From positions 14,720,863 through 14,784,862 of the forward strand of contig CM057135.1 of the NCBI GenBank assembly GCA_029964075.1: a stretch of DNA of 64,000 nucleotides, written 5' to 3'. The first letter of the stretch is position 1. Every line of letters starts with the position of its first letter. A program made the position numbers and the translations under genes. Shown here piece after piece: positions 16,963-44,047 of the stretch. Source of the DNA: Patiria pectinifera. Taxonomy: Eukaryota > Echinodermata > Asteroidea > Valvatida > Asterinidae. The notes below the pieces were generated by a model. It was not told the origin of the DNA. It saw only the letters and a program-made list of their open reading frames with translations, and made no database searches.

Positions 16963-16993
16963 TATGGCATTATTTCTCATTCAAAAGTCAAAA

Positions 16994-17021
16994 GGTGCAC
17001 CTTTTCATGAAAAGGTGCACC
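16994..17021. repeat. Perfect 28-bp palindrome near the left end
   Basis: Starts GGTGCACCTTTTCATG and is its own reverse complement over 28 bp; it lies 31 bp from the end. The copy at 43,989-44,016 is identical. Further GTGCAC copies follow in the next 150 bp. A transposase-binding or hairpin role is an inference. Confidence 0.9.
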
Positions 17022-17167
17022 ATTTCAGTAGATGATGTTGAAACTGGAGATAAAGTGCACCGTTATAAAATGTACTTCAATTGTTGTCGCATAATTGGTC
17101 TTACAGTGCACTTTTTGAAACAGAGCACTCGTATGCTTGGCAGTGCACTGTTTGGTTTTGTGCACCA

Positions 17168-18095
17168 CGTTTGCAGATCATCTACATGATGTAGTTCTAG
17201 GGTGTATTTCTTGTAGATCATCTACATGATGTGGTTCTAGGGTGTATTTTTTGTAGATCATCTACATGATGTAGTTCTAGGGTGTATTTTTGGTAGATCA
17301 TCTACATGATGTGGTTCTAGAGTGCATTTCTTGTAGATCATCTACATGATGTGGTTCTAGGGTGCATTTTTGGTAGATCATCTACATGATGTGGTTCTAG
17401 GGTGTATTTTTGGTAGATCATCTACATGATGTGGTTCTAGGGTGTATTTTTTTGTAGATCATCTACATGATGTGGTTCTAGGGTGTATTTGTGGTAGATC
17501 ATCTACATGATGTGGTTCTAGAGTGCATTTTGTTGTAGATCATGTACATGATGTTGTTCTGGAGTGCATTTTGTTGTAGATCATCTACATGATGTGGTTC
17601 TAGGGTGTATTTCTTGTAGATCATCTACATGATGTGGTTCTAGGGTGTATTTTTGGTAGATCATCTACATGATGTGGTTCTAGGGTGTATTTTTGGTAGA
17701 TCATCTACATGATGTGGTTCTAGGGTGTATTTTTGGTAGATCATCTACATGATGTGGTTCTAGGGTGTATTTTTTTTGTAGATCATCTACATGATGTGGT
17801 TCTAGGGTGTATTTTTTTGTAGATCATCTACATGATGTGGTTCTAGGGTGTATTTTTTGTAGATCATCTACATGGTGTGGTTCTAGGGTGTATTTTTGGT
17901 AGATCATCTACATGATGTGGTTCTATAGAGTGCATTTCTTGTAGATCATCTACATGATGTAGTTCTAGGGTGCATTTCTAGTAGATCATCTACATGATGT
18001 GGTTCTAGGGGTTTTTTTTGTAGATGATCTACATGATGTGGTTCTTGAGTGTATTTCTAGTAGATCATCTACATGATGTGGTTCTAGGCTGCATA
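17168..18095 (+). repeat. 40-bp satellite array, left (about 23 copies)
   Basis: Each unit contains GTAGATCATCTACATGATG, whose first 13 bases are palindromic around a central C, followed by TGGTTCTAGGGTGTATTTTT. Units are 38-42 bp and differ by a few bases or by length of the T-run. Confidence 0.95.
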
Positions 18096-18164
18096 TCTGG
18101 TATATCAGGCTCGTTATTGCAAAATATTAAACAAAAACTACTGCATTTAAAATCAACAGAATGC

Positions 18165-18905
18165 AGTACAAAAGGTCAATGCAGGATAAGCGACTAGCCC
18201 ACTACACGTAAAGAATGCAGTACAGAAAGCCACTTCATGACAAACGACTGCCCCAATACACGTAAAGTATGCAGTACAGAAAGCCACTTCATGATTAACG
18301 ACTTACCCAATACATGTAAAGTATGCAGTACAGAAATCCAGTGCAGGATAAGCGACTGATCCAATACACGTAAAGTATGCAGTACAGAAAGCCAGTGCAG
18401 GATAAGCGACTAACCCAATACACGTAAAGTATGCAGTACAGAAAGCCAGTGCAGGCTAAGCGACTGACCCAATACACGTAAAGTATGCAGTACAGAAAGC
18501 CAGTGCAGGATAAGTGACTAACCCAATACACGTAAAGTATGCAGTACAGAAAGCCAGTGCAGGATAAGTGACTAACCCAATACACGTAAAGTATGCAGTA
18601 CAGAAAGCCAGTGCATGATAAGCGACTGACCCAATACACGTAAAGTATGCAGTACAGAAAGCCATTGCCGGATAACTGACTAACCCAATACACGTAAAGT
18701 ATGCAGTACAGAAAGCCAGTGCAGGCTAAGCGACTGACCCAATACACGTAAAGTATGCAGTACAGAAAGCCAGTGCAGGATAAGCGACTGACCCAATACA
18801 TGTAAAGTATGCAGTACAGAAAGCCACTGCAGGATAAGCGACTGACCCAATACATGTAAAGTATGCAGTACAGAAAGCCACTGCATGATAAGCGACTAAG
18901 CTAGT
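18165..18905 (+). repeat. 54-bp satellite array, left (about 13 copies)
   Basis: Units contain CACGTAAAGTATGCAGTACA and GAAAGCCAGTGCAGGATAAG. The period is 54 bp, so open frames run through the array on the minus strand, but they only repeat an 18-residue pattern and are not evidence of a gene. Confidence 0.95.
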
Positions 18906-19348
18906 ACATGTAATTTGTAAAGTATGTGGTTCTCGGATGCATTTCTTGTAGATCATCTACGTGATTTGGTTCTTGGTTGCATGGTAAATCATGGCCTCGT
19001 TATTGCAAAATAATGAAAAACAAAAATTACTGTCTGTATTACTGAAAGACGGGTGAGTTTTTTTCGTATCAAGTTACGAGCACGTACGTGCGCCTACTAT
19101 GGTTCAATTCAGTCACTACGCTGTTCACAGGGCGCCCTCTACCCTGTTTCGAACATACATACGTGCGGCGTTTGATTATCATTCACAGAACTCTTTGAAA
19201 ATATCAATGTTACAAAAACAAAGAAGTAATTAAGGTTATTATTACATTTAAAATACTGATGGTATACCGATATATCTTAAAAACCGCCACCCCCGCCTCT
19301 ATATTCTCGCTCATGTTAGCCTTCGCTTTGTATGGTAAGTCCTGAACT

Positions 19349-20330: not shown

Positions 20331-21965
20331 TGTCACTACACGTAAAGTATGCAGTACAGAAAGTCAGTGCGTGATAAGCGACTAACCCAATACACGTGAA
20401 GTATGCAGTACAGAAAGCCACTTCATAATAAACGACTAACCCACAATACACGTGAAGTATGCAGTACAAAAAGCCACTTCATGATGAACGACTAACCCAA
20501 TACACGTAAAGTATGCAGTACAGAAAGCCACTTCATGATAAACGAGTAACCCAATACCCGTAAGGTTTGCAGTACAGAAATCCACTGCATGATAAGCGAC
20601 TGACCCAATACACGTGAATTATGCAGTACAGAAAGCCACTTCATGATAAACGAGTAACCCAATACACGTAAGGTTTGCAGTACAGAAATCCACTGCATGA
20701 TAAGCGACTGACCCAATACACGTGAAGTATGCAGTACAGAAAGCCACTTCATGATAAACGACTAACCCAATACACGTGAAGTATGCAGTACAGAAATCCA
20801 CTGCATGATAAGCGACTGACCCAATACACGTAAAGTATGCAGTACAGAAAGCCACTGCATGATAAGCGACTGACCCAATACACGTGAAGTATGCAGTACA
20901 GAAAGCCACTTCATGATAAACGAGTAACCCAATACACGTAAGGTTTGCAGTACAGAAATCCACTGCATGATAAGCGACTGACCCAATACACGTGAAGTAT
21001 GCAGTACAGAAAGCCACTTCATGATAAACGACTAACCCAATACACGTGAAGTATGCAGTACAGAAATCCACTGCATGATAAGCGACTGACCCAATACACG
21101 TAAAGTATGCAGTACAGAAAGCCACTGCATGATAAGCGACTGACCCAATACACGTAAAGTATGCAGTACAGAAAGCCCTTGCCGGATAAGCGACTGACCC
21201 AATACACGTAAAGTATGCAGTACAGAAAGCCAGTGCAGGATAAGTCACTGACCCAATACACGTAAAGTATGCAGTACAGAAAGCCAGTGCGGGATAAGTG
21301 ACTAACCCAATACACGTAAAGTATGCAGTACAGAAAGCCAGTGCGGGATAAGTGACTAACCCAATACACGTAAAGTATGCAGTACAGAAAGCCAGTGCAG
21401 GATAATGACTAACCCAATACACGTAAAGTATGCAGTACAGAAAGCCATTGCAGGATAAACGACTGACCCAATACACGTAAAGTATGCAGTACAGAAAGCC
21501 ATTGCCGGATAAACGACTAACCCAATAAACGTAAAGTATGGAGTACAGAAAGCCAGTGCATGATAAGCGACTGACCCTATACACGTAAAGTATGCAGTAC
21601 AGAAAGCCACTTCATGATAAACGAGTAACCCAATACACGTGAAGTATGCAGTACAGAAAGCCAGTGCATGATAAACGACTCACCAAATACACGTGAAGTA
21701 TGGAGTACAGAAAGCCACTTCATTATAAACGACTAACCCAATACACGTGAAGTATGCAGTACAGAAAGCCACTTCATGATAAACGACTAACCAAATACAC
21801 GTGAAGTATGGAGTACAGAAAGCCACTTCATTATAAACGACTAACCCAATACACGTGAAGTATGCAGTACAGAAAGCCACTTCATGATAAACGACTAACC
21901 CAATACACGTGAAGTATGCAGTACAGAAAGCCACTTCATGATAAACGACTGACCCAATACAATAC
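20331..21965 (+). repeat. Internal 54-bp satellite array (about 30 copies)
   Basis: The same 54-bp unit as in the inverted repeats and in the same orientation as the left one, but inside them. Many units here have the variant CACTTCATGATAAACGACTA. Confidence 0.93.
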
Positions 21966-22832
21966 GGTAAACGTGTTTTGCCTTAAGCCCAAGACACACA
22001 TTCATGGTTGGAGCTACGAATATCCACGGTTTACCAAGAATCAATCGATTACGATGAACTGTCGAGATTCGTGGAGAAATCGACTTTTTTAATGCAACAT
22101 AATGTACTTGCATTGAAGACCGATGTGCATGTACGTGCCACATGCACATATGCGGGGAAATGTGGTAGGGCCGGGCCGGCCGCGATTTTCCCCCCAATAT
22201 ATCCGCATGGGGTTTTACGTTAAATGGCGTTTGAGACTTAACTTCTCTTAAAAACATGAGAAAAAAATATAAAATTAGAAAAGCAGAAATGAATTCAAAC
22301 GTAATGACATTCGGACTTTATTGGGGGGGGGGGGAATGGGGAAAGGAGTGGGGCTGGTACCATGTTGAGATGAGGCGCTTCTCAAAACCGACGATCATGC
22401 ACCCACTACAGAAAATATATGGCGCATAAGGGGGATTTTAACAAAGTTTTAACCAAGTCATAACAGCCGCTGACACAAAAAGGCCACTACCTTAATTATT
22501 TTTGTTAGGCAAAAAAACTTTTCAAAAAGGGCACTTGCTACAAAATAAACGCTGTTTCAAATTAATTGGGGGTGGGTGGGGGTAAACGCTGGTGAAAACG
22601 GGCATTTGAATAAAATAGGGCAGTCTCAACAATATACAGGCGGGGGATAAATACCTGCACCCGACCCCCCAAGTTTTCCCCCATAAACTAAACACGCTCT
22701 TATCTTGCGTTGTTCTCGCGTGAGTGGAAGATGACAAGTTTCTAGCAGTACCTAACCGCACCAAGCCCTAGGCCCCCCAATATGAGAGTGACGCTGTTTC
22801 CACCCGTCATAGCAGCGATACATCGTTAGGGA
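21966..22832. other. Upstream region of the transposase gene
   Basis: No gene is recognised. It contains a G-run at about 22,322. A promoter for the transposase gene would lie here, but I cannot point to a clear TATA box. Confidence 0.4.
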
Positions 22833-25460
22833 ATGGCTGCTGTGGATGATATTCTCGCTACTTTAAGTAAAATAAAGAGAAATTACTGCAAAGGTAGACG
22901 TGTACTGAGTGAAGAAAATCCATCGCTTTCAACCCTTCAAAAAGTGTTAAAGCAGGTTTCGAAAAACGTAGTAAAGATCGATGCAATTCGTCATGATATA
23001 CGTGATCGCCAAATCCAAAACCATAGATTAAATCGATCACTATCGAGCATAAGATCAAAGCTCAACATTTCGAAGTCTCGTCTGAGAAAAGCCATCGAGA
23101 AAGCAGAACGTCAGGTTCGTTATAATGCGCCACAATCTAGGGGTACAACAGGCAGACCACGTTTCGATATCACTTTGGCCCAACTCAACCTATTGAGAGA
23201 TGCGCATTTCTCGTGGCAAAGCATTGCCGACTTACTTGGTAAGTAAATACACAAATTGTACAATTGTAACTTTTCATACGTGTTTTTTTTATTGTCATGA
23301 CTTGTTTTCTGAGTCCAGCGGATATGTGAAAAAATTGTGCACTTTTGCATAAAACCGTGAAACTTGGCACAGATGTTTATATTCATGCGAGAAAATGTTT
23401 GACATGTGGAGCCAACGCAAATTTACCCTTTTTTCTCATGGTTGCCACCCTCCTAAAAGGGTGTGTTCGAGATGGCTCCACATCTGGATTTTTTTTCTCG
23501 TGAATATAAACGTCTGTGGGACGTTTTATTCGTTCATGAAATATGGGCACAATGTTTTCCAAAGTGGGCATAATAATTACCCCCCCCCCTTTTCTTTTAA
23601 TGGCTGCCACGCCCCCCCCCCCAAAAGGTACTATTGTGGTGGCTCCGAATCCGGAAAACACTAATAATCTATATAATTATGTCTTTGTGAATTTTCCTGC
23701 TTTTGTAACAAGTGGGAAAAACCGAGATGTGCCGAGATTTATCCATTCTTATTTATTTATTTTTTTAGGGGCAAGGTCATGTCCACTTTTTTATCAAGTT
23801 CGATCAGAAAGTTGGAAGTGAAGGAGAGTACGTCATGAACGTGAATAACTGAAATGGAACAAAAACTCAGTAAAAAAAAGAAGAAATGGCAGGAGGATTC
23901 TACCCCAGAAACACGCTGTTTTTACCCCCCCCCCTGATATTTATGAATGCTTCATATTTTTCTTCTATTCCATAGGTGTTTCAACATCAACTGTTTACAG
24001 GAGACGTCAAGAGCTTGGATTCCAAGATAGTTTGCGAACTGTCACGGCGGACGAGCTCGTAGAAATTATTCGCGATATCCAGACATACAACCCGAACATA
24101 GGCGTCACACTGATGAGAGGAGAAATCCGTTCACGTGGTGTTACAGCCAGTCATCGGCGTGTATGGGAAGCAATGACTGGGATCGACCCTGAGGGTGTAA
24201 GTCTGAGATGGAACCCCCCTTTGCAGCGAAGAGAATATTCTGTCAGAGGTCCAAACAGCATTTGGCATGTTGACTCAAACCACAAGCTGATCAGGTAAGT
24301 CACTATTTCTATATTAATAATAATAAAAACCATTCTTTTATAGCGCATATTACCGTGACTGAGGACCCTATGCGCTCTCATGAAATCAACAATTATACAA
24401 ATAGAACAGATGTGTTTTGACCCGGGTTTTGAATAGTTTTCAGTTATGTACATGTTTGTTTTCAAACACCAGTCTAGGCCTATAGCATATGACAAATATC
24501 CCTTACACCCTTGATCCGTTTTAATTTGAAGTGTTTTAATTTTTCATGATCAAATCATCCGGCGATCATTGATGATCAGTCATTCCTATCCCTGCCGTTG
24601 TTGTCTATTCATATGTGTTAAAATTTATGACTGTCATATAGTCATCATTTGTACGATCTCGCCAGTAAAAACTACAGCTTGGAATACGAGCATGCATAGG
24701 ACCTAACAATGGTTGTTACTCTATCTTTTGTCTTTTTAGATGGAAGGTGTATTTGCATGGAGGTATGTGTGGATATTCAAGAAAGATAATGTACATTGGC
24801 GCTGCTGACAACAACACCGCTGATGTTGCAGGCGAATTTTTTGAGACAGCCACAGAACGGTTCGGATGGCCATCCAGGGTTCGAACGGACGCCGGCGGTG
24901 AGAATGAGGTCATTGGTCGTCTAATGGAAGACAGGCGTGGTAACGACCATCACCCTTGGTTGCAGGGGGCCTCGACCCATAACCAAAGAATTGAGCGGTT
25001 TTGGCGTGACCTGCAGGTGCCAATTTTGAACATTTTCCGTGAAATCTTTTCCCGTCTAGAAGAGGAGAATGTGCTAGACCCTGCGTGTGATGATGACGTG
25101 TGGTGTCTCCATTTTGTGTTCATGAATGTCATCCAGAGACAACTTGATCAGTTTGTCCTGACCTGGAACAATCACAGTCTCCGCACGGAACACAGTAGAA
25201 CCCCCGACCAGCTGTTCATCTCCGGCATGCTCCAACTTTACAACTCTGGCGCAACGGGGGTTATGGAACTCTTAGACCACATACAAGCAGAACACATTCC
25301 CGTCGAACGACATCGCCATCAAAGCTCACTTGATGTTAATGTGTCAGATAACTGCATCCGAGAACTGTCTGCTAGTGTCAACCTCACGAACATTTCAGCC
25401 CAACAGGGAGAACTGATCTACACGCAAGTTAGAAATATTTACAGAAGGTATTTGCGGTAA
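22833..25460 (+). CDS. Transposase, HTH plus integrase-like DDE domain, three exons
   Basis: Exons 22,833-23,238, 23,976-24,294 and 24,740-25,460 join to 481 codons with no break. Both introns have consensus ends (G|GTAAGT and AG|GTAAGT donors; CATAG and TTTTTAG acceptors), and phases match. The N-terminus is helical. Residues about 110-150 form a helix-turn-helix (FSWQSIADLLG | VSTSTVYRRR), split by intron 1. The catalytic domain has IWHVDSNHKL (D235), VRTDAGGEN (D292) and THNQRIERFW (E327), giving a D-D34-E triad. Such enzymes cut and join transposon ends and recognise terminal repeats. It is the only evident enzyme gene of the 27-kb element and looks potentially functional. Confidence 0.9.
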
Positions 25461-28400
25461 AGGACTATATAAATTACAGCTGACCCTATGTATCTGTTCG
25501 TTCTACCATGCAAAATTATCTAATTAAGCAGTCATAGCAGTGTACTTCTTTGTTGAAACACAGTGACAGGAAATGGTTTATATATTACTGAAAATGAGAT
25601 TTTAAATTGTTCCTTGTTCTTTTATACGTTTGCACTGTTAATCTGCTGGTTAAAATCCAAATGTATACCGATTTAACCATTTAATCATGATGCTCCGATC
25701 CATGCGATTGATGTACAGTGATAAATTCAAGATGTATGATTTATTTTTCGATTGATAGGCCTCGACCATTGTTGACTTCGCAACTGCTTTGTGTTTTGCG
25801 TATTAACGTAAATCAATGCCCCATTAATTTACGTTACTACGCATAACACAAATGGTTCAGGTGTTAAATGTTTTAAACATTACATGGTTTCCACACAGGC
25901 CAGTAGTTTAAAATGAGGTTAATTGGAAGATAGAAGGGTTGACAGAGGAAGTGCATCCGATTCCCGAATAAAAAGCAGTTCACACAACATTAAAAATCCC
26001 AACATTTAAGCCTAATTGTCCCTCCGTTTTTCACGTGTTTTTGGTATTAACTCTGATTTCAGAAGCCGTGTTTTAAAATTTTTGCCTCAGTTCAAATGTC
26101 CATGTAAAATGTATGCCACTTCAAATTCAAGCAATTTTAAACAGCAGTGCTATTGGAGCAGGCTTTTACTTGTTATAATTTTTTGTTCTTTGCACATTCT
26201 GAAGTCAAGTCCCTACATGCACTGTTGTTGTTGTTTTTGCTTTAACAGTAGTGTGTCTCCGGCCCCCTGTTCTAGTGCAAATAGTTTCCTTGGTTACGTG
26301 ACCTCTTAGAAAAATAGTCGTATTAATGATATAAGACACCATTTGGTTAGTGGGGTGTTGCACATTTAGTCCGACGCCTCATAAGTAGTCCGATACGGCC
26401 TCGAGCTGACATGCCCTCAGCAGATTAGCAAAGAAGGGAGTGCATGGAGAATGAAAGTATTTCATTTTCTGTTCATTGCTATGGAGGCATATTTCTTGAT
26501 GCATTTTATCATTCAGTAGAGTGGGTACTGTTTAAAGTCTGTAGGCCTATTGATGCGGAGGCCAATGTTCACCATTGAAATCTTTTTAGGAAGGGCATGT
26601 TTTTTAAAGACTTTTGAACGATCATTATAATCTTTGATTAATTGCTATGATTAGTTCAAAGTCGATTTTTGATCGGATGTATATTTAAGTGTAAGTGTTC
26701 TACTCTTATTAGAGGTTGTATTATTCTTTGAGATATTGCGTGATGTTGTAGATCTTATTTTTGGGAAAACTCGGTACTGTATATTTTTTTTTTTAAATTC
26801 CTAACCAAGTTTGCCTGTAAATTGATCACTAGGAGGTATGGCGTTCCCACAGATCCAAGAGTACAGCAAAGTCTATTCCACATTTTCCTGCTGTATTTGA
26901 CTAGATTATGTTTAACGCAGTATAATAGCTACCTTTTTTTTGTAATGTTGGTGCTGAATTTCAATGTTCAGAGCTCGGCACAAGTCTAACTCTAATTTGA
27001 AGGTATGCAGAGGTACTTGCTGGATTAGCAAATGAAAGTGTTTAATGACTTTATCACTAGTCGTAGCCATCTGTGAATTGCGTGTGTAACTTGATGATGT
27101 ACGTTGTGAAGTGACTCATAAATGGCTTATGGCCGGTCTAATCGGTGTGACTGGAGACATCTGTTTTGGCTCAAGTGTCAAAACTGAAGTATACAGCATT
27201 GTTCTGGAGCTCATTAATAAGTATCGCCAAAAAGTTGTTGATTTCACTCAGACTGCTCGAGGTTCAGTAGAGGCTTGTTTATGATGAACTGATAATAAGT
27301 GTTTTGTAAGGACCTACGTACCACTTCGCGTTTACAAAGTGACAAAGCGTCAAGACGTTTCACCCCTTGTATTGACATCACTTAACTGTACGTTAGAATA
27401 GCATTTGCATCCATTGCTAAGTGTGGTAATTGTGTATTGGTTTTTCTTTCTTTTTCGTTTTAGGATTTTGTCTGTACCGGGGTGGTAGTTAACTTTTGTG
27501 TTTGGTTTTATTTAGTTTTTTGTTAGCTCTGGTCTCCATCTTATTCCACAATTTGTTGGCTCAGTGGGCAGCAGTCAGAGGATTCTACTTTTGTTGGTGC
27601 GAGGTTTTAACAATTTTTTTTGCCGTTGGTACTCGTGTCCTTGTCATTTCATATAATTTAAGTCAAACTCACATTTTATATTTTATTTCGAAAGTTCTTG
27701 ATTGTTCTTTGATTCGCTGGTTTTTTTCTACATTTTTTAGGTGAAGTGAATCCATTTTTGTTAGCTTCACTGGATGTGCTGATATTGAAAAGAGATTTCA
27801 GTTGATGTCATTTTTGTTTGAGTGTAACCCCTAAGTCCTAACAAAATAGTCTGCGACCCAATATTATTATTCCAGCGGAGTAAAACATTTTTATACTAGA
27901 TAAACTTTGGACTATTTGTCCAGGTTACAAACAATTGCATTTAATTTGTATATGTATCACAACGGTTCATGTTACAAGATTAAAATTACATGGAGACACA
28001 CTTGTTCGAGTGTTGCTTATTTTTTTTCAACCTTTGTTGATGCAGTGTTGTATAGGAAAATAGAAGAACACACGAAAGTGATGCTGACTGGCCCGAATTT
28101 TGGTTAAAGCAATAATAGTCATGTTACATTCCAACATTGACTGCGCTGCCACTGAAACGAGGCTAGGCCAAATGAAATTAATATTTTCAAGGCTATGTAA
28201 TTATTCTGACGGTGGAGTGAGCTGTTCAGTTTTCATATTTGCTTTATTGAAGTTTTACATATTCCCATTTTGCTGGACGGTATTGCAATCACTAAAATCT
28301 GGCCATTTGGACAAAGTGTGAATTCCAACATTGCGCAGATTAATTGAAAATTAAATGTGAACACCGCCATCTTGATAATTTCCCTCTAATCCATAAGTAT

Positions 28401-29940
28401 AAATGACGCTAAAGTCTATGAGCAATGGCATTTCCTCAATGGTCTTTACATTGGTAGGTAGCCAGCATATCGATAATGATATGTACTATTTTTCCAAACG
28501 TATATTAGTACTTATAGCTTGCGCAATAAACAATTTACACTGCAAACAAGAAAACATGGCATCCGGGCTACGTGTTTTTTTTTAAGAGCAGTTGCACTTG
28601 CATCAATTAGAAACGACGGCCAGCCGACCATCATGGAACTGCCTTTTTTTTCAAAATTTGAACCCCGATTATTTACTAATTTTGCGATTGGAAACAAATC
28701 TGTGCAATGGTGCCAGCCAGCTATTCTTGTTTTCTTTGCCCAATTCCTTCCTCCATGCCTGGCCGGACAATTCTCAGAAGTCTGTACATTGTTTGCTACA
28801 TCTCAGGAATTGGGTCAGGAAACCTCGAGGCTACGAGAACGGCATATTTTGTCGTCAACCCTGAAACAGGCACGTCCATGAAACAATATTTGCTATAAAA
28901 TACTGACCCCAAAAATCTATCCATATCCGACAATTACAGCAACAGAACATGCATATGACTCTAAAGATGCTCTTAAGGTAAATATTTTCAGAGCTTGCAA
29001 ACTGTGAACGAGTCCTTAGTTGGTTCGATTTGAAGGAACCAACCGAGATCTGCGTCCCCTTTTGCGTTCGACTCATCCCTAGGCGCCCTCCTTCTTTTGT
29101 CACGATTTTGAACACCCCTTTGTGGAGACTGGAAGAGGCATGGAGACAAGGATTGTTTGCAATCGGCTCATCCTTCCTCCCCCAGGCCCCCAGCATGGTC
29201 AAGCACAGAAGGGTTCAATTGGTTCAAGGCGCCACACACATCATGCACATGTGTATGTTCATGGTTGCTATTAAAATTGTGCTTATGCCCGAAATATTGC
29301 CGATGAATGGTGAATGGTGAAATGGTGCTTTCGTTTACAAATTGTGACACACCGTAACAAGTAACATTACATGACATTTTAAGAACTATTTTAATTTTGA
29401 TGAGCCTGAACACTTGAAAAATACAGTTAAAGTAGATGAAAAATAACGGATTCAAAATGAATCTCTTCTTAAATTTTCAACAATTTTTAACAAAATTTCA
29501 TTTTCCGAAGATATCACTTTCCTTATGATAAAGTACATAGTCAAAGAACAATTCAAGTCTGCAGTCCTGGTTTCATGATATGCGTGATAGTTTATTTCAC
29601 ATCTTTGGCATTTTTTTCGCTCCCGCTTCGCAAATGCAGAATGTCATTCAAATGAGTTGCCAAATGTCGCGGGGAGGTTGGCAGGTTGTGCCTCTAGTGC
29701 AAAGTTTTTGTTATTGTTTATGTGACTATAATGTGCTTGTATTTTCTTTTCAAAATCATTGACCTCTGTTTCAATTGATTGATTCTAATATAGGTTTTTT
29801 TCGCCTATTTGAAAACACTTTCCATTCAGATTCACCAACTCTGACATTCAGTTTCGTCCTTGAAAAAATTCACATGTTTTTAACAAAACCATTTTAGTCG
29901 TTTACCATTCAATTTCAAAGTTTGGTCCTCCTTTTTAGTC
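25461..29940. other. Interior region without recognised genes
   Basis: 4.5 kb with only short random frames. A possible polyadenylation signal for the transposase gene is AATAAA at 25,967. Apart from the hairpin at 25,788 I find no repeat array or domain. Confidence 0.45.
25788..25852. repeat. Hairpin with 26-bp arms
   Basis: Arms at 25,788-25,813 and 25,827-25,852 are reverse complements with two mismatches (TTTGTGTT..GCGTA..TAACG core), with a 13-bp loop. This could be a miniature foldback element. Confidence 0.75.
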
Positions 29941-29949
29941 ATCGGGTCG

Positions 29950-31005: not shown

Positions 31006-31289
31006 CCCTTCAAGTCCGTTTTCTGTTGACCCCGCTAGGGTCAGGAATGCGGAAGTAAACAATGCAGTGACCGTCCATTCATAAATCCGGACGCAACAGC
31101 TGTGTTTGCGATCACAGTGCATGCAGTGTGTCTAACCAATATTCAAGGACATTGTGGCTGACACTCGAAGAACTCGAACAGTGTACACTAACCTTGTTTT
31201 GTTTATGTTATTTTCCTTCTTGTATTTTCCAAATAAGTTGTTTTTAGTCTCCCTTGCATTTAGTTCTATTATTATTAGTTTAGATGCAA

Positions 31290-31720: not shown

Positions 31721-31749
31721 CTCAATATATTGACTGTTTCAAATTTTTT

Positions 31750-33524
31750 CTTTGATTGCGCTACTAACACAACCCAAGAAGCGGGACGGACTGAATAGAA
31801 GGTATCAGGGTGGGCCTATCAATTGCCGCAAAATCGGTACAAGGACCTGGCATGACTTAAATATAAAAACGGTGAATTCAAACGCAAAATGTTTTAGAAT
31901 AGCCGGGAAAACCTATACTAACTATACACAGTGGAGCATCGCTATACCCAGCAACGCTATACCGAACGTCATCATGGGCTCTATGTTTTCATGTACAAAT
32001 TAATCGTACTGTACATTGTTGTTGAAAAAAGGCAACCGGAAACAGTAACGCAACCTTTTATAATATTAACCATTATTTAGGCGATTTTTCATCAATTCAT
32101 CCGAACTTCCGATTATATAATGAAAACTTTTGGCCCCAAACGCGCAAAAGCTCTGTGTAGTGAGTGCCAACATACAGCCATGCACATACTGTACGTTCAT
32201 GTATGTAGTTGACCTGCAATGCATGTAAATGTACATGCGGTAAACCGGCTGGGGGATTTGGATTGCTCCATTACAGTAATAGGGGTGAACAAAGACTCTC
32301 GATATTTATCAGTGGTTAAACCAAACGCAAATGGTGTTTCGTCAGAAAAAAAGAACCTTGTATAATAATTCATATAATTAAGGACTCCATTATCTTTTAT
32401 TTATACTTTCTACTATGTTCTACCGGACGTTAAAAGCTCCCATCGATCTCATGTCATTTATTGGTCACTGTTTATTGACAGATTCGTACCCATTATTCAA
32501 GTGGAACGGTCCCAAGCTGAACACGTGTAGCTCGGCTATACAAGGCTTTTCAAGGGTCATTTTTGTAAGAAAAGTGCTTATTGGAAGAAAATTTGAGAGA
32601 AAAAATGATCCCTGGATTTAGGACCAATCACAATGAATTTTACATTGAGGAAAGAGGAACTCTTCTACTTCACAAAACCGTTCACCCCAAAGTGTGACAA
32701 CCTTGGGTTCTCGCGCTATGTCAAGATAAAGACGACGGGCCATTAAATAACTGTCCGTTTGGGCTGTTTTTCTATGTTTCTCCATAGACAAATCTGGCGG
32801 AGTGCAAAGCTTTGAAGAAAAAATGATCCCTGGTTTTTCCAAAAATGTTGATGAAACATACATAATCAAGAAGCTTAAAATGTATTCTTTCATATTCCGT
32901 TCACCCCGAATTAATACGATGCTCCGTTCAAAAGATGCAGCGTTTGTTAGACCAAAAGTATCTCAATTTTGAGAGGTTTTACCGTGTTAAAGCTTCGTGT
33001 AGAAAATTCGGGGAGCAGATGCGCGCTAGTTTTCAATATTGTTTGAACGTTGAAGAGTAATACAGGTAGCTTGAATTTTCCCGAAGAATTGAAAGTAAAA
33101 GCCACCCGGTGCATATTGTTAATAAGCAATATCCTGAACCTAAATCACCGACAGCTCAAAAACACACACGGGGACTTGTACCGGCGGACGTACATACATT
33201 GAGTATTGGAGAGGAACCGAGCCAGAAGAAAAATATCAACTCAACAAAATCGCGCTAAACATAACATGAGGAACCGAACGCCATTTACACTGCTCATGCT
33301 GCTTGTGAACCATGGCCTGATTTACGATCCAAATCCGATGATGATCTGATGTACCTCGAACATCATAATGGTAGAGATTTCCCCGCCAAAGTTCGAAATT
33401 ATTATCAGTTATCCTGCATTTTCTACAGCTTAAAGTTTTGCAGCTTTGATTTTGTGCCCCGAGCCCCCCCCCCCCCCAAAAAAAATCGCAATCGAAGCGG
33501 AAAGTGCGCGGCGCATGGAAATCA
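31750..33524. other. Interior region without recognised genes
   Basis: No supported coding sequence. A C-run (33,463-33,477) followed by an A-run is the only low-complexity feature. Confidence 0.4.
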
Positions 33525-33674
33525 ATGCTCATTTCATATACGTGTAGTCTGGTTTCCTGTCATTTTCCCCCGACGTCCAGACACAGTTGTTCAACCCGGT
33601 ACCTTAAATGCTGTGGAACTGGTGAGGTTATAGAATCATGTGATTGCAAACATATATGTTGTCAGTGTTTGTAA
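33525..33674 (+). CDS. Short cysteine-rich ORF (49 residues), uncertain
   Basis: An ATG-initiated frame with 10 Cys in 49 residues, including CCGTGEVIESCDCKHICCQC near its end. The Cys spacing could bind zinc or form disulfides, or this may be one exon of a longer gene. There is no signal peptide. I do not recognise a family, and a frame of this length could arise by chance. Confidence 0.25.
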   Translation: MLISYTCSLVSCHFPPTSRHSCSTRYLKCCGTGEVIESCDCKHICCQCL

Positions 33675-33799
33675 ATGCTGCGGTTTCCGTACCTGTGCAA
33701 CTAAACAGGATGGTCAACAGAGTTGGGAAAAACAAGAGATTAATACACTTGACAAGACTAGTAATGACGACATGTGTAGGCATCCGGGGGCCTCCCGAT

Positions 33800-34460
33800 A
33801 TTCAGAAGGCTCGGTTGTCCGAAGGTTCTTTAGTACGAAAGTTCGATATTCCGAAAGCACATCATTTCCATAATAGGGGGCTCGTTAGTCCAACAATGAT
33901 TCGTTAATCCAAACAGTTGTTGAAATAGTCCGAAGGTTCAATAATCCGAAGGTTCCTTAGTCCGAAGGTTCATTTGTCCGAAGGTTCGGTAGTCATAATT
34001 AAGAATAAGGTCCGAAGGTCCGAATCAACAATAGGGTTCAATAGTCCCAAGGTTCACTATTCCGAATTGATAACAAGGTTCGATAAATCCAATAGTCCGA
34101 ATGGGCAATAAGGTCCGATAGTCCGAAGTGTCAGACTAACGAACCGTATTGTCCATTCGGATTATCGAACCTTATTCTCAATTCGGACTAGCGAACCTTA
34201 TTGTCAATTCGGACTATCGAACCCTACCGTATATTCGGACTATCAAACCTTATCAGCTATTCGGACTACCGAGCCTTATTGTCGATTTGGACCGATCGAA
34301 CCCTATTGTCGATTCGGACCGATCGAACCATATTGTCTTTTCGGACTACCAAACCTTCAAATTAATTAACCTTAATCTATTTTTGGGCAATATCCCTTCG
34401 GACTATCGAACTTTCGGACTAGTGAACCTTCGGAGTAATGAACCTTCGGACTAAAAAACC
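33800..34460. repeat. Mirror-image array of TTCGGACTA/GGTTC repeats
   Basis: From about 33,800 to 34,130 the plus strand repeats CCGAAGGTTC-type units (tagtCCGAAGGTTCaata). From about 34,150 to 34,450 it repeats the complement (TTCGGACTATCGAACCTTA). Spacing is irregular (18-30 bp). The whole is an imperfect 650-bp palindrome centred near 34,140. Confidence 0.9.
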
Positions 34461-34646
34461 TTCAGACTATTGGGCTGTAATCAGGCATTCAATCACTTGT
34501 GGGATATGTTGTTTTTCAAGAGACTTCAGTTACTTTGCAATTTTGCTTTATATAATTGCATTGAAACATTTCATGTCCCATGACATCATTTTATTCGTTT
34601 CGTTCAGTCATTTTAAGTTCATCAATTATTTTTCCTCTGGTTACAG

Positions 34647-35341
34647 GACGTCCCACTTCGAAGACATCTCAGACTCGATACAGAGGTGAGAAATTCATTA
34701 TGGTCCAATATAATACATTTTACTTTTTATGAAAATAGTGACACCGCAAACATTTTTTGAAGCGTTGTTAATAGCATCGGCAGAATGGATCAACAAAGAT
34801 CAGAAAGCGATTTCCATTTTTTACCCAAAAAGGGGGGAAAATGGAAAAATTTATTTCCAGACACCTCATGCACGATGGTATTATTTCATTTCAATAAGTA
34901 CTTTTGGCAAAGATTCAAAATTTAACTTTATAACGTATCATTTAAATATATATTTAGTTGGCATCGATAACAAAATCTAAATATATCATGCAGCGTGTGA
35001 TCATTCAAGAACAATATGATGCCGAAAGTGCATAATATACACAATTAGCATATTTTAATGCACTAATTAATTGCAAATTGAAACATTTATTTTGTAACTG
35101 AGAAGGCATCAACTCTTTCGGCATGGCTAAAGATTTTGATAAACGGGTGGGTTTAGAAGGTGGGTGGGAGGGATGCTAGGAATCATGTTTGAGTTTTAAG
35201 ACATTAATTTATTCTTGTTTTTTTCTTTTTTTCCCAATTAGGTTTCGTTCAGAGGGGAGACTGGTCCGAGTACAATGGATGAAGATGACACAATTCCACT
35301 CCCAGATGAATTGTAATTACATGGTGTATCTCTTCAATAAA
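34647..35341 (+). CDS. Possible last two exons of an unknown gene
   Basis: Exon 34,647-34,685 (39 bp, 13 codons) is bounded by TTACAG and GTGAGA. A final exon starts at 35,242 after a pyrimidine-rich TTTTTTCCCAATTAG and keeps the frame open for 24 codons to a TAA at 35,314. AATAAA follows at 35,336. The combined C-terminus is acidic (STMDEDDTIPLPDEL). Upstream exons could not be placed. It could be cargo of the 27-kb transposon, a fragment of a captured gene, or chance. Confidence 0.35.
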
Positions 35342-35399
35342 GCCCTGCGCACACATTCAACATCGTTGGTTTCCTTTAAGTAGCAAAAAAGGAGCTCAT

Positions 35400-36984
35400 T
35401 TAAATGAGTTTGTCAAGAAAAACAATTAAAAATGTATTTCAAGAAGTTGTGTTTAAGAAAGCAAAACCAGATCCAACATTATTGGAAAAGGGACCTGATA
35501 GGTGACAAATATCCCCCCTATGTTGATTAATGTAATCAAATCAAGTAGCACCATTCTGATAACATATTATCCTAAAGCCTCTGTTTTCATAGTAGTTAAG
35601 AGTTTCTATTAAAAGATGTTTTTATTGTATGCATGTGTTCCGTTTCATTGTTCATTGAAATACAATGTCATTTGCGTCTACTAAAGGTTATTGCTTCAAA
35701 GGGTTAAATAGTTAGCGAACATGGATTATTACCTTCATACACTGTTGACTATAACAAGACTACATGTGGGGGCACAGTCGCGCAGGCGAATTCTTCTAGG
35801 TACAAAAACATGTATACAAAGATCTAGGACCCAAGGAGCTCGAACTCCAAGACTTCAAAAGTAAAAAGATGGTCGCCGCACTCCAAATCAACAATAAAAA
35901 AGACCTGGCGGCCAGCTTGCTAACTTGCTCACGTCCTTAATCTCTACACAATAGAGATCCACGCTCAATCAATGCCAGAAGTGAGACTTTGCATTGCCTT
36001 GAAGCATACCACGCTAAATGCGCATGCGCCGTTGTCATACATCGCCAATCAATGATTTTGAAGTATTTGTTCGCAACTGGATATTATACAAAATATTGAA
36101 TGCTTCGAGTGGTGTAGTATGACTAGCCTCCCGAGGTGATCCATGAAGTGTTCTATTTTTCCCGTGGCGAAGCCGAGCGACAATAGAATGCTCGATAGAT
36201 TACCAAGTTTTACTACACCACGAGATAAGGCAGTCAATATTTGCTTTATAAAGCCTCTTCCGGCCCACAGATTCTGCTTGATTTTAAGTGATAACTGATT
36301 ATTTTAATCTGAATACAATAAAATTTTCTTCTATTTGAATACGAAATAAGTTGACAATTAATTTCCTCTTTTTCTAATACCCCTTCACGAAACAATACGC
36401 GCAACACGCAAAACCACACACCTTTATGCATGGTTGCTATGGGTGTAGCACTTATGGCCGTGCACTGAAAGATAGCAAAATAGAAAGTACCATGTGACTC
36501 GGTCTCAACCAATCAAGACACAGAATCTGCGGATCAGGTGTTATAATATACAAATAATGAGTGGATCAAAGTGAAATGGAAGGAATATTAATACAAAGTA
36601 AAATCTGGACTTGCCGAGTGAACTGGATAAGTCCAGATTGTACCGAGCAATAATATTCCTCCCGATTCCAAAATTTATGTACTTGATCTTTTATTACAAT
36701 ACAAAATTAATGGAAAATGTGTTTCTCTCTTCCAAACCACCCCTTGCGAAAATGTTTGAACCCAACTCTGTGGCGCTGGCTCTTTGGAACAATACGCACT
36801 ATACCCGAAACGCTGAACGCGCACATCAGCATGCATTTGCACACAAATACCGCGTCATGGAACAAGCATCGATTCTATACAATGTATATCGGTTATATAA
36901 TAAGGGAATAAAATGTGTGTTCCGGAGGTTTTTTAACACTCTGTTTAAAACCGGTGTGAGTCTGGATGGGTGATAATTACCCGA
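35400..36984. other. Interior region, one foldback, no genes recognised
   Basis: No supported coding sequence. An inverted pair CGAGTGGTGTAGTA (36,106-36,119) and TACTACACCACGAG (36,212-36,225) brackets 92 bp and may mark a small foldback element. Confidence 0.4.
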
Positions 36985-38215
36985 GGTGAAGAAAGATGTA
37001 TTATCTGGCAAGCGCTCATTGCGTGCGAAAAGGTTTCTGACTGTGTCAATGGAGGGCGCTGTTTTTTTTTGTATTGCAAAATTTTCAGCGTTTTTATTCC
37101 TGATTTTCTCATTCCCAAACAAACTGTGGATCAGGGAACAAGTTTTTTTTTTTTAGATATTGTACATCATAATCTTCATGGCTGGAAAGATTTATAACAT
37201 TCGACGGACTAGATCGCGTTTCTCAAAAACTAACGCGTTTTCGGCCTCTCGTCCCACGGACTACATCTTAAAAACTTTGTTCCCCGGTCCACAGTTTGTT
37301 TTGGAATCAGAAAATCTGGGACAAAAGCTAAACAGTTCTGCATATGAAAAGAAAACATAGGAAACAGCGTCCTCTATCGACAAGTCAGAAACCTTTTCGC
37401 ACGCAATGATTGTTTGCCAGATAATATTTCTTATATTTTTTTTTTTATCTAAGACATAACTTTTTAAAAAAATATTTCTGAAGTTCAGATGCTCCACCGG
37501 ATGCCGCACACTTCTATTATTGTTGAAAACACTATTCTATCTGATCCGGGGTTTAACAATACCAATCGATGTTTATGTGGCTAATACATAACATTCAATC
37601 TTAAATTTGAAACTTTACCATTTCATGTTGGCTTTCGGTGAGAAATAACAAAAATCTAGAATTGAATATGAAAGTATCATCTAGCAAGCATTCGTTGGCA
37701 GAATTCGGGCGGGTCTTGTTCTTGACACGGGTATTTCATTCTCTTACAAACCCCAACGGATGGTGGTATGCGATTCTGTTCCGATCGTGTTCCCGCCGTT
37801 CGAGTGCGCGAACAATAAAAAAAATACTCGAGTCAAGAATAGGCCGCCCGAACTCAGACGGTCAGTCATTGCGCGAGAAAAGGTTTCTCACTATGTCAAT
37901 GGAGGGCGCTATTTCTATTTTTTCCCTCATGTAGAGTTTTTGACGTCTTTATCCCAGATTTTTTTCACTCCCAAACAAAATGTGGATCGGGGAACAATTT
38001 TTTTTCGGTAGTGTACACCATAATCTACATGTCGGTGAAGGTTCGTAAAATTCGGAGAACCAGACCGCATGGCGAGCAAAAAAAAAGGCCTCGTCCCACG
38101 GACTAATGGTACATAATAATCTACATGTCTGGAAAATTGTGTGTAAAATTCGGCGGACCAGATCGCGTATCTCGAAAACTAAAGCGATTTCGGCCTCTCG
38201 TCCAACGGACTATTA
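36985..38215. repeat. Three related copies of a ~170-bp sequence, two of them inverted
   Basis: Copy 1 (about 36,985-37,150) and copy 2 (about 37,265-37,440, reverse complement) share GTGCGAAAAGGTTTCTGAC and AACAAACTGTGGA. Copy 3 (about 37,855-38,010) has the same order as copy 1. Flanking TTCGGCCTCTCGTCCCACGG recurs at about 37,240 and in variant form at 38,090 and 38,190. This looks like a decayed inverted-repeat transposon with a partial duplicate. Confidence 0.7.
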
Positions 38216-38269
38216 AATATGTATATGCTACGGAAGCGTATTTGGACATGACCGAACAATATATTTTTT

Positions 38270-38535
38270 TGGCCCACTATTACGCCCGGGCAGATTGCTA
38301 TTTTGCCCGGACAGATTATTATTACGCCCGGACAGATTGCTTTTTCGCCCTGCCGGATTTTTATTTCGCCCTGGTGATTTACTATTTCGCCAGGGCAGGA
38401 TTACTTTTTCGCTCGGACAGATTTATATTTCGCCCTGGCGGATTAGTATTTCGCCAGGGCGGAATACTATTTGGCCCGGACGGATTTATATTTCGCCTGG
38501 GCGAATTAATATTTCACCCGGACGGATTACATTTT
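38270..38535 (+). repeat. Tandem repeat of ~20-bp CGCCCGGACAGATT units
   Basis: About 13 imperfect units of the pattern (C)GCCCGGACAGATTnnTATTT, e.g. at 38,283, 38,304, 38,325 and onwards. Open frames through it reflect the repeat, not a gene. Confidence 0.85.
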
Positions 38536-38539
38536 GAGC

Positions 38540-41267
38540 TTTTTTTGAGATCAAAAGGCAGCTCAAATTATCCCAAATGCTGATATTTGATAGTGTTTTA
38601 GGAACCTTTTCGGCCGCTTAATATTTTAAAATACTTTTTTGCGTTATCAGTCTGTTTATCTCACTTTTACAGTTGGGGGATCATTTACACAATTATACAT
38701 CATAAACTGTAAACGTTGACTGAACATCCCAACACATAGTAGTACACATTACCGTGACGTCATTGGGAGGTCATCAGGTATTAAAACTCAATTCACGTGA
38801 TTTTCGTTCATTTATAAATCATGTAATAAACGGCAGAATACATGTTAAAATCGGTACGTGTTTTTTTTCAAAGTTCAGTTTTCCTTCCGAACGAAATGTA
38901 ATGCCCTTTAACAAATAAATGTGCCCGTTTGCTTCTTAAGGTATTTATACCAATTTCTAAGGTGTTTTTAAACGGCGCGCTTCAAAAGTTATTTGTCGGC
39001 CGATTTTTGATGTCAAACGATATCTCATTGGAAAGCAAAAACTAATGCTAAAAATTCAATTCAATTTGAAATTAATAATATTTTACAAGGTGCCACGCCC
39101 AAGAAGTCCTAACTGTAATGCTCTCTCGTCTAATCAACTGCGGACGGTGATATGGGTTGTCAATATTAGGGTTTTAGGAATTTTGACAAATATTCTCATT
39201 GATCTTGCTTCAAAACGTTCCTAGAAATGCCAACAAAAGACAGATTTTTAAAAAAAGTTCATGCCGTCCTAGTAAGTTATGACGTCATCACACCATTACT
39301 TGCAGTTCAAAACCCCTGAATTAGTATATTTAGTGTGCCTCTCAAGTTATTTCTCAATGCATTTCGAAGTAAACGTCAAGCAGCTTCTGCTTTCGAATCA
39401 AGGCAATATCCATCACACAAGATAATAAATGTACGCGGTGTATTAAACATTGCAACTAACATTTTAATTGCTTGCAATTTAATACCCGGTAACGTCATGA
39501 TAACGTCACACAATTTGTCCACTTTTGCAAAAAAGGGTATATTTTCAGACTAGGTTTCCTCTTCAACCTATTTTAAGGATTGTGTCTCAAATTTTTAACG
39601 TTACGTTTGACGATCCGCTATTCCGGTGCCCACCCAGAAAAGAGAGGTCAAGCGACGTTTCCTTGAGAATGTAGTTTATTCATCCGAATGTCTGTTTTCT
39701 TCCAGATAATAAAGTATTTTAATTTTCATTCATTTCATAATTTTTGGCGAACGAAAGTCACGTTTATGAAGAAAATCAGTCCTATGGTAATACCTGATGA
39801 CATCACAGTAACGTCACGGGTAGTACTAGTACGGTAATGACTCATGATTAATGTTCAGTCCCATTTTCAAGTTTATGAACTTTTTTGGTTTTGATAAATT
39901 CAACGGTAATTTGAAGCAGTTTTTACATTCCTTTTGATTGTTTTAACAATGTTTTATTTACAGTTTTATCACATAAGCATGATATTTAATTGGATATTTT
40001 TAGCAACGCGCAACCCCCAATTTAAAACGAAAAATATATGCGAGAGAAAAAAATGGAGCCAACTTAATTCGAGGTGACTATCCAGCTTGATGATGCATTT
40101 TGAATTTTGTCGGAGACATAATGAGCTCCGTGCGCTACCAAAAGAGGGCGCCCTTTTTCTTAGCAACGACATCCCATGGTAGCAGACCAGTAAATAAACT
40201 TCCATAGACCGCAATGGAAAATGCTCCCACTTCAAAAATTCGGGAAAAATACTCACAACTCTCCAAGGTGTTCGAGACACACATCAAAGTAAAGCTTATT
40301 TCATCATCTTTCATTTTCATTTCAATTTTCGGGGGGTCAACTGATGACTTTTAGGAGAAATTTCCATCTGAAGATGATCACCCCTGAAAATAGTCCTGAA
40401 GCCCATCGCCATTTTGAAAAACGATGCCTACACTCCATTGCAAAGTAGAGCGCTTTTAGGGTCCAAATTACATCAAAATTACACAGAACTGCAAGCTCCA
40501 AGTCCTGTGCACGGTTTCCACCCATATTTTTTACAAACCCTCAAGTTCATGGCCCACAGCATGCTCAAATACCGAAGATTTTGAAGGCATGCAAATCGTG
40601 AATTGGCCGGCGCAGGCAATTTCGGACCGATTTACTGGTCTGCACCCCCATGGAAGGGACATTTCGCTGGTTGACGCGCACCGTTCCTTGTGTGTGACGC
40701 GCGTACACCAGGGATTTGTTATATGTAAACGCAGTGGCCGCGCTTTGCTGCAGCTATTGAATTGCACTCAGGCAAGATGGCGTCGGTCGGTCACCCCAAC
40801 TGTACTTCCTTTGCCGGTGAGGGGGTACTTGTGAACGGAGCGGATACCTACTGCTCTACGGGCATAAATAAACATGTTTGTGCACAAACCTACGGAAATA
40901 ATAGGTACGCATAACGTTCGTTTGCCCCACGCCATGTGCGTTGAGCGTCCATGACGAAACAGGGAAATTTGTGCACACTATATGCGGACTCTATGGCGCG
41001 TACGCACGTGCTGCCGAGAATTTCATAGCGCTGGTTAACAATAAGCAGAAAAGTTGTGCTTAGGCAACTTCATGAAAATCATGCTGTTGTTTGAGCACTA
41101 TTTCATGCTAACGGTTGCGCGCGCATGGAGATTTCGATTGTTACGTCACTGATTTAAGCAAAGTTTTCTTCTGGGGTTAAGCGTGATTTTGCTGTGCTTA
41201 ATGCTTTAACGGTCCCTATAATATGAGATAGATGGAGGTTCGGTAAGCACAAAGTCGGCTGTTAAGC
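38540..41267. other. Interior region without recognised genes
   Basis: 2.7 kb without supported coding sequence, array or domain, ending at the right inverted repeat. Confidence 0.4.
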
Positions 41268-41689
41268 AGTTCAGGACATTCCACACAAAGCGAATTCGAA
41301 CATGAGCGAGGATATAGAGGCAGGGGTGGCCGTTTTTAAGATATATCGGTATACCATCAGTATTTTAAATGTAATAATAACCTTAATTACTTCTTTGTTT
41401 TTGTAACATTAATATTTTCAAAGCGTTCTGTGTTCGAAACGGGGTAGAGGGCGCCCTGTGAACAGCGTAGTGACTGAATTGCACCATAGTAGGCGCACGT
41501 ACGTGCTCGTAACTTGATACAAAAAAAACTCACCCGTCTTTCAGTAATACAGACAGCAATTTTTGTTTTTCATTATTTTGCAATAACGAGGCCATGATTT
41601 ACCATGCAACCAAGAACCAAATCACGTAGATGATCTACAATAAATGCATCCGAGAACCACATACTTTACAAATTACATGTACATGTACT

Positions 41690-42830
41690 AGGTTAGTCGC
41701 TTATCATGCAGTGGCTTTTTGTACTGCATACTTTACATGTACTAGGTTAGTCGCTTATCATGCAGTGGCTTTTTGTACTGCATACTTTATGTGTATTGGG
41801 TCAGTCGCTTATCATGCAGTGGCTTTTTGTACTGCATACTTTACATGTACTAGGTTAGTCGCTTATCATGCAGTGGCTTTCTGTACTGCATACTTTACAT
41901 GTATTGGGTCAGTCGCTTATCCTGCACTGGCTTTCTGTACTGCATACTTTACGTGTATTGGGTTAGTCACTTATCCTGCAATGGCTATCTGTACTGCATA
42001 CTTTACGTGTATTGGGTCAGTCGCTTATCCTGCATTGGCTTTCTGTACTGCATACTTTACGTGTATTGGGTCAGTCGCTTAGCCTGCAATGGCTTTCTGT
42101 ACTGCATACTTTACGTGTATTGGGTTAGTCACTTATCATGCACTGGCTTTCTGTACTGCATACTTTACGTGTATTGGGTCAGTCGCTTATCATGCACTGG
42201 CTTTCTGTACTGCATACTTTACGTGTATTGGGTTAGTCACTTATCATGCACTGGCTTTCTGTACTGCATACATGTACATGTACTAGGTTAGTCGCTTATC
42301 ATGCAGTGGCTTTTTGTACTGCATACTTTACGTGTATTGGGTTAGTCACTTATCCTGCAATGGCTATCTGTACTGCATACTTTACGTGTATTGGGTCAGT
42401 CGCTTATCATGCACTGGCTTTCTGTACTGCATACTTTACGTGTATTGGGTTAGTCACTTATCATGCACTGGCTTTCTGTACTGCATACTTTACGTGTATT
42501 GGGTTAGTCGCTTATCATGCAATGGCTTTCTGTACTGCATTCTTTACGTGTATTGGGTCAGTCGCTTAGCCTGCACTGGATTTCTGTACTGCATACTTTA
42601 CGAGTATTGGGTTAGTCGCTTATCCTGCAGTGGCTTTCTGTACTGCATACTTTACGTGTATTGGGTCAGTCGCATATCATGCAGTGGATTTCTGTACTGC
42701 ATACTTTACGTGTATTAGGTTAGTCGTTTGTCATGAAGTGGCTTTCTGTACTGCATTCTGTACGTGTAGTGGGTTAGTCACTTATCCTGCATTGACTTTT
42801 TGTACTGCATTCTGTTGATTGTAAATACAG
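41690..42830 (-). repeat. 54-bp satellite array, right (about 21 copies)
   Basis: Same unit as at 18,165-18,905 but inverted (TGTACTGCATACTTTACGTG, then TATTGGGTCAGTCGCTTATC on the plus strand). Confidence 0.95.
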
Positions 42831-42892
42831 TAGTTTTTGTTTCTTAATATTTTGCAATAACGAGGCTGATATACCAGATATGCAGCCTAGAA

Positions 42893-43840
42893 CCACGTCA
42901 TGTAGATGATCTACTAGAAATGCACTCTAGAACCACATCACGGTAGATGATCTACAAAAAAACCTAGAACTACATCATGTAGATGATCTACAAAAAATAT
43001 ACACCCTAGAACCACATCATGTAGATGATCTACAAGAAATGCACCCTAGAACCACGTCATGTAGATGATCTACAAAAAACAACAACCTAGAACCACATCA
43101 TGTAGATGATCTACCAAAAATACACCCTAGAACCACATCATGTAGATGATCTACCACAAATACACCCTAGAACCACAGCATGTAGATGATCTACCAAAAA
43201 TACACCCTAGAACCACATCATGTAGATGATCTACCAAAAATTCACCCTAGAGCTACATCATGTAGATGATCTACCAAAAATACACCCTAGAACCACATCA
43301 TGTAGATGATCTACAAGAAATGCACCCTAGAACCACATCATGTAGATGATCTACAAAAAAATACACCCTAGAACCACATCATGTAGATGATCTACCAAAA
43401 ATACACCCTAGAACCACATCATGTAGATGATTTACAAAAAAATGCACCCTAGGACTACATCATGTAGATGATCTACCAAAAATACACCCTAGAACCACAT
43501 CATGTAGATGATCTACAAGAAATGCACCCTAGAACCACATCATGTAGATGATCTACAAAAAAATACACCCTAGAACCACATCATGTAGATGATCTACAAG
43601 AAATGCACTCTAGAACCACATCATGTAGATGATCTACCAAAAATACACCCTAGAACTACATCATGTAGATGATCTACAAAAAATGCATCCAAATACTACA
43701 TCATGTAGATGATCTACAAGAAATGCACTCTAGAACCACATCATGTAGATGATCTACAAAAAATACACCTTAGAACCACATCATGTAGATGATCTACAAG
43801 AAATGCATCCTAGAACTACATCATGTAGATGATCTGCAAA
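42893..43840 (-). repeat. 40-bp satellite array, right (about 24 copies)
   Basis: Inverted copies of the unit at 17,168-18,095 (CATCATGTAGATGATCTAC, then ACCCTAGAACCA on the plus strand). Confidence 0.95.
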
Positions 43841-43988
43841 CATGGTGCACAAAACCAAACAGTGCACTGCCAAACATACGAGTGCTCTGTTTCAAAAAGT
43901 GCATTGTAAGACCAATTTTGCGACAAAAATTGAAGTACATTTTATAACGGTGCACTTTATCTCCAGTTTCAACCTAAACTACTGAAAT

Positions 43989-44016
43989 GGTGCACCTTTT
44001 CATGAAAAGGTGCACC
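43989..44016. repeat. Perfect 28-bp palindrome near the right end
   Basis: Identical to 16,994-17,021 and 31 bp from the right end. Confidence 0.9.
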
Positions 44017-44047
44017 TTTTGACTTTTGAATGAGAAATAATGCCATA

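Follow-up and report, generated by a model that had tools for sequence, protein, structure and literature searches.

What is the 27-kb unit that lies between two long, satellite-rich inverted arms in the genome of Patiria pectinifera, and what do the satellites contribute to it? We analysed a 64,000-nucleotide stretch of contig CM057135.1 (positions 14,720,863 to 14,784,862, forward strand), referred to here as the window and used for all coordinates. The unit occupies 16963-44047 and is one inserted unit of 27,085 bp. An earlier note, made from the letters alone, had taken it for a giant mobile unit and had named IS3EU as a possible superfamily. Our analysis indicates that it is very probably a cut-and-paste DNA transposon of the IS3EU type whose ends are of the foldback kind, and that it is probably autonomous.

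The element entered a dispersed repeat in a single insertion event, with a 6-bp duplication. At the left junction TACACT is followed by the element start, TATGGCATTATTTCTC, at 16963, and at the right junction GAGAAATAATGCCATA, ending at 44047, is followed by TACACT; the element end is the reverse complement of TATGGCATTATTTCTC, and the termini read TATGG...CCATA. The target-site duplication (TSD; 16957-16962 and 44048-44053) is a perfect 6 bp that cannot be extended by one more base on either side, so that the duplications and inverted ends reported in the earlier note are exact at both junctions. Independent support for the insertion comes from the flanks, which are part of a dispersed repeat that has another, empty copy in the window (60021-62520). 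The left flank (16824-16962, 139 bp) matches 60021-60165 at 90.4% identity and the right flank (44049-44083, 35 bp) matches 60161-60195 at 97.1%, so that at the empty site both matches share 5 bases (60161-60165); farther right, 44126-45410 matches 60197-61482 at 96.7%. When the flanks are joined with one TACACT, they align through the junction to this paralogous copy without the element (60021-60195, plus strand), where one base is missing and a single ACACT stands in place of the duplicated hexamer. The other gaps in the alignment, of 3 to 38 bases, all lie away from the junction.

The arms of the element, 16963-19348 on the left (2,386 bp) and 41268-44047 on the right (2,780 bp), are reverse complements of one another. 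The arm alignment and Tandem Repeats Finder agree with the sub-block order that the earlier note had described, including its 40-bp and 54-bp satellites: each arm runs from a 207-bp tip, or flanking domain, through an array of 40-bp units, a single-copy block of 72 or 75 bp and an array of 54-bp units to an inner block. On the left (plus strand), these are the tip (16963-17169), which carries the TATGG terminus, six GTGCAC motifs and overlapping 16-bp and 28-bp perfect palindromes, the 40-bp array (17170-18088, 22.8 units), the between-array block (18089-18160), the 54-bp array (18161-18897, 13.6 units) and the inner block (18898-19348). On the right (minus strand), the tip (43841-44047) has the CCATA terminus, five GTGCAC motifs and the same two palindromes, followed inwards by the 40-bp array (42886-43840, 23.8 units), the between-array block (42811-42885), the 54-bp array (41680-42810, 20.9 units) and the inner block (41268-41679). 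The single-copy blocks are about 96% identical between arms: 199 of 207 bases in the tips (96.1%, eight differences), 69 of 72 aligned bases in the between-array blocks (95.8%, plus three gap columns) and 396 of 412 aligned bases in the inner blocks (96.1%, plus 39 gap columns).

The arrays behave differently from a simple mirror image. By eye, the units at their edges can be matched from one arm to the other, whereas in their interiors one register is only slightly favoured (best 0.929 versus mean 0.904 for the 40-bp arrays; 0.924 versus 0.897 for the 54-bp arrays), and the idea that the arrays are collinear mirror copies is therefore not supported. Paired edges together with weakly registered interiors suggest that the arms may have been copied as whole blocks, whether by template switch, by gap repair or by gene conversion. 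The interiors of the arrays would then have changed independently in the two arms through unequal exchange or slippage. Within the left arm, 18036-18143 and 18924-19032 are 81% identical, which places a diverged copy of a 40-bp unit and the between-array block inside the inner block, so that the 54-bp satellite is flanked by two copies of one module. A further 54-bp array (20337-21961, plus strand, 30.1 units) is present on the left side only, inward of the arm and in the same orientation, without a mirror partner; this array and the empty target copy go beyond what the earlier note had described.

Between the arms, three predicted exons on the plus strand with GT-AG junctions encode a transposase of 481 amino acids without an internal stop. 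Exon 1 (22833-23238) holds the predicted start, the N-terminal region and the first part of a helix-turn-helix (HTH)-like stretch, exon 2 (23976-24294) the remainder of that stretch and D235, and exon 3 (24740-25460) D292, E327, the C-terminus and the stop codon. The protein contains an rva_4 integrase core well above the Pfam cut-off (E 5.3e-69). D235, D292 and E327 are invariant in all 20 aligned sequences (the transposase and 19 of the 109 listed relatives) and, from their motif context, are probably the catalytic residues. No HHCC-type family occurs among the 13 Pfam families listed for the protein at E up to 0.05, and none of those listed is a THAP match.

A protein search found at least 109 relatives at E up to 0.001 (7,996 scored candidates), with 30-47% identity among the matches listed; the organisms named among them are all animals, including sea cucumber, soft coral, sponge, hydrozoan, hemichordate, lancelet, beetle and fishes. 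A pattern derived from the transposase alignment gave 35 matches in viral contigs, none of which was confirmed, and 34 in genome contigs, of which three were confirmed, all in one sponge-symbiont bin. These three contigs (L001-L003), whose bin is labelled as a Cycloclasticus symbiont of a poecilosclerid sponge, encode transposase relatives of 36-42% identity and probably come from the sponge rather than from the bacterium; at 3.4-4.2 kb they are too short to judge for ends, two having no exact 13-base inverted pair and the third only low-complexity pairs. The 18-base element terminus had no exact match in viral contigs, and the left arm had none in phage records. About 330 bp past the transposase stop codon lies a hairpin (25788-25852) with 31-base arms (90% complementary) and a 3-base loop.

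IS3EU families are described as having TA..TA ends and usually a 6-bp TSD (PMC10045372), and fungal members as having TAYGG..CCRTA ends (PMC12730594); here and below, we compare with the portions of the cited papers on which we drew. The TATGG..CCATA termini take both forms. The 6-bp TSD, seen in one copy of the element, is single in the empty site save for one missing base, and the enzyme is an integrase-like D-D-E transposase without an HHCC motif, which is the property that points to IS3EU, rather than rva_4 membership itself. The long terminal inverted repeats (TIRs) with flanking, tandem-repeat and inner domains are of the foldback type. An assignment to Galileo and the P superfamily would call for a P-type THAP transposase and a 7-bp TSD, in place of the integrase-type rva_4 enzyme and the 6-bp TSD found here. 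Polintons, or Mavericks, carry DNA polymerase B and capsid genes next to an integrase; neither a DNA polymerase B nor a capsid domain was found in 19 of the 100 non-satellite open reading frames (ORFs) of at least 60 amino acids between the arms. Ends, duplication length and enzyme type thus give the IS3EU lead good support; these, and not a transposase tree, are its basis. That the element may be a new family, as the earlier note had proposed, is plausible, judged from one copy set against published descriptions. The note's further proposal, that the unit amplifies two satellites, is conjectural.

How might such ends work? The transposase would bind palindromic sites in the tip (GTGCAC/GGTGCACC), bring both arms together and cut at TATGG/CCATA, and the ends would then be joined to target positions staggered by 6 bp. 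A palindrome of 13-15 bp that recurs in the 40-bp units may be a further docking site, which we advance tentatively and at somewhat less than even confidence. Such a role for the satellites is favoured because palindromes occur both in the tip and in the 40-bp unit; the 54-bp unit does not favour it. The six copies of GTGCAC in the left tip were equalled in none of 5,000 Markov-1 shuffles of its sequence, and the five copies outside the two tips all lie within 21962-41267. The first 98 bases of the left tip fold as single-stranded DNA at z -4.26 (none of 200 shuffles as good). The 40-bp consensus holds a 15-bp odd palindrome, two tandem units reach z -2.53 when folded (equalled by 2 of 200 shuffles), and the 13-base core GTAGATCATCTAC is unbroken in 42 of 47 units, with variants at 0.8% in the core and 6.9% in the remainder. 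The low variation of the core is suggestive only.

Besides the basis of the class assignment, several observations weigh against the overall reading of the element, docking included. The element is known from one copy. HTH models match the transposase at residues ~120-149 only below the Pfam cut-offs (best E 9e-5), and its rve match is also below the cut-off. The arms differ by ~4% and have not been kept identical. GTGCAC occurs in none of the five arrays. The full 15-bp palindrome is kept in just 22 of 47 units. The 13-base core was selected with the units already in view (column-shuffle p 0.018), and it is less uniform, with five variants, than the overlapping 13-column windows that begin at columns 6 and 7, with four. 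The 54-bp consensus lacks palindromes of at least 8 bp, and the unit folds no better than its shuffles (z 0.46, 134 of 200 as good), so that a docking role fits the 54-bp satellite poorly.

We give nearly even prospects to an alternative in which the transposon is the same but only its tip is recognised. The satellites would then be neutral by-products without a part in transposition, generated in the long inverted repeats by slippage or by misrepair that hairpins induce. This alternative opposes the docking step and not the identity of the element. It accommodates the scrambled array interiors and unequal copy numbers, the additional 54-bp array outside the arms and the featureless 54-bp unit, as well as the mobility of the IS3EU-type Styx with a TIR of 36 bp (PMC10853768). 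It accounts less readily for the position of the palindrome core in the least variable part of the 40-bp unit, or for the same phase and, by eye, similar edge units of both 40-bp arrays; moreover, transposase-binding sites have been demonstrated in the TIR tandem repeats of Galileo (PMC3688188). The boldest extension of the docking proposal, a foldback lineage within IS3EU whose paired satellites act as dozens of palindromic docking sites, enable the movement of 27 kb and seed two host satellites, we regard as quite unlikely.

A second alternative concerns size. A smaller IS3EU element may have been inserted and have reached 27 kb later through nested insertions and array growth, so that the mobile unit was not giant; we consider this somewhat unlikely, although the gene-poor interior lends it substance. 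In the 15.8 kb to the right of the transposase, no gene was recognised in the 18 of 78 ORFs of at least 60 amino acids that were scanned, and the 19 ORFs scanned between the arms gave only a sub-threshold Integrase_p58_C match (E 3.3e-4) and a chance-level Dpy19 match (E 0.025). The former belongs to a degenerate Gypsy-type integrase remnant (29911-30448, plus strand, by tblastn), which is probably a nested insert. Dense short direct and inverted repeats occupy ~33.8-34.5 kb and ~37.0-38.5 kb. A scan of 21962-41267 for nested elements (exact 11-base seed, flank match of 2-10 bases) returned two candidates of small size, 33926-34453 (AAA flanks, 28 of 30 end bases matching) and 37001-37424 (TA flanks, 27 of 30), and otherwise variants that overlap these or pairs that match less well. 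An inverted pair of 32 bp (38752-38783 and 39788-39819) was set aside as a nested element, as no matching flanks were seen in the sequence inspected around it.

The Gypsy remnant and the small repeat structures may be later inserts, and the unit may therefore have been smaller than 27 kb at insertion. Against extensive late growth, such stretches sum to only ~2.8 of the 15.8 kb. Also against it, the open transposase would argue for a recent insertion, while the Gypsy remnant is degenerate. For the giant mobile unit of the earlier note, this means that insertion as a whole stands, on the TSD and the empty site, while the unit that inserted may have been smaller.

That the arms are instead an error of assembly, or arose as an inverted duplication at this locus, is highly improbable: long satellites are hard to assemble and a single assembly was examined, but the single-copy blocks are only 96% identical, the longest exact run shared by the arms is 119 bp, the array interiors differ, the 500-bp outer flanks share no exact inverted match longer than 9 bp and the junction in the empty site falls precisely on the duplication, so that we reject a palindromic assembly copy.

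Several other repeats were recorded in the window. Inside the element, 33790-34480 contains 16-bp and 26-bp tandem repeats in inverted arms (~85% complementary at best), resembling a miniature foldback nested in the element, and 36993-38534 contains direct and inverted copies of ~100-170-bp segments with a degenerate 21-bp array and includes the candidate at 37001-37424. Outside it, matches to proteins of the long interspersed nuclear element type lie on the minus strand at 12404-14838, 46432-46746, 51607-54063, 58039-60082 and 62110-63410, those at 46432 and 62110 extending into the two copies of the insertion-target repeat. A Gypsy-type long terminal repeat (LTR) retrotransposon (1929-10701, minus strand) has two LTR-like direct repeats of 445 bp (1929-2373 and 10257-10701, 98.2% identical) and carries an internal array of ~130-bp tandem repeats at 8450-9749. 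Searches with the proteins of the long interspersed nuclear element and Gypsy types gave best identities of 72% and 64%, respectively, among the 120 matches listed for each (of 3,677 and 1,522).

Returning to the element, which we read as an IS3EU-type transposon with foldback-type ends, we compared it with known systems. It resembles other IS3EU elements in its 6-bp TSD, TATGG..CCATA ends and D-D-E integrase-like transposase without an HHCC match. It differs from the fungal members compared, whose TIRs are described as longer than 30 bp (PMC12730594), in its largely satellite arms of 2.4-2.8 kb and its total of 27 kb. Styx of Zymoseptoria likewise has a transposase linked to IS3EU, was searched for as a TIR element with a 6-bp TSD and has made new insertions in a fungal pedigree, but it is ~7.9 kb long with a 36-bp TIR, and the account mentions no satellite arms in the parts used here (PMC10853768). 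Satellites resembling IS3EU elements have been reported (PMC8268682, PMC5844308); IS3EU ends made of satellites are not described in the portions of these two papers that we used, an absence within the literature searched that is no proof of novelty. A review of giant transposons takes elements longer than 20 kb, and the term IS3EU is absent from what we used of its main text (PMC6431247).

The earlier note had called satellite-built ends uncommon, and so they are, but tandem-repeat ends are already known from Foldback, Galileo and Tetris. Galileo, a Drosophila element of the P superfamily, is in our analysis the closest known system in its working: it has long, internally repetitive TIRs, unequal repeat numbers per arm and transposase-coding sequence (PMC3573991, PMC3688188). 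Binding sites in its repeats have been demonstrated (PMC3688188), whereas docking is a proposal here. Galileo also differs in its P-type transposase, of which no functional version was found in D. mojavensis, its 7-bp duplications, its TIRs of up to ~1.26 kb, about half as long as the arms here, its long repeats of ~210 bp in only two or three copies (four in Galileo-G) and the restriction of its longest TIRs to copies without a transposase ORF (PMC3573991, PMC3688188). Tetris and classic Foldback share the arm order of flanking, tandem-repeat and inner domains around a middle; for Tetris no transposase is known, and its repeats are of a single type of ~220 bp, in contrast to the two dissimilar satellites and open transposase found here (PMC4079207).

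What is unusual is thus the combination of 2.4-2.8-kb foldback-type arms, two dissimilar satellites and an open integrase-type transposase in 27 kb. The element would let the role of TIR satellites, the copying of long arms and the bridging of 27 kb be tested with the cognate enzyme. Its end design is known from Drosophila elements, in which the enzyme is of another type and the scale is smaller. Foldback structures have been proposed to evolve independently from different transposon lineages through transposase loss and TIR elongation (PMC4079207), and an open integrase-type transposase with two dissimilar satellites per arm would be a further independent case.

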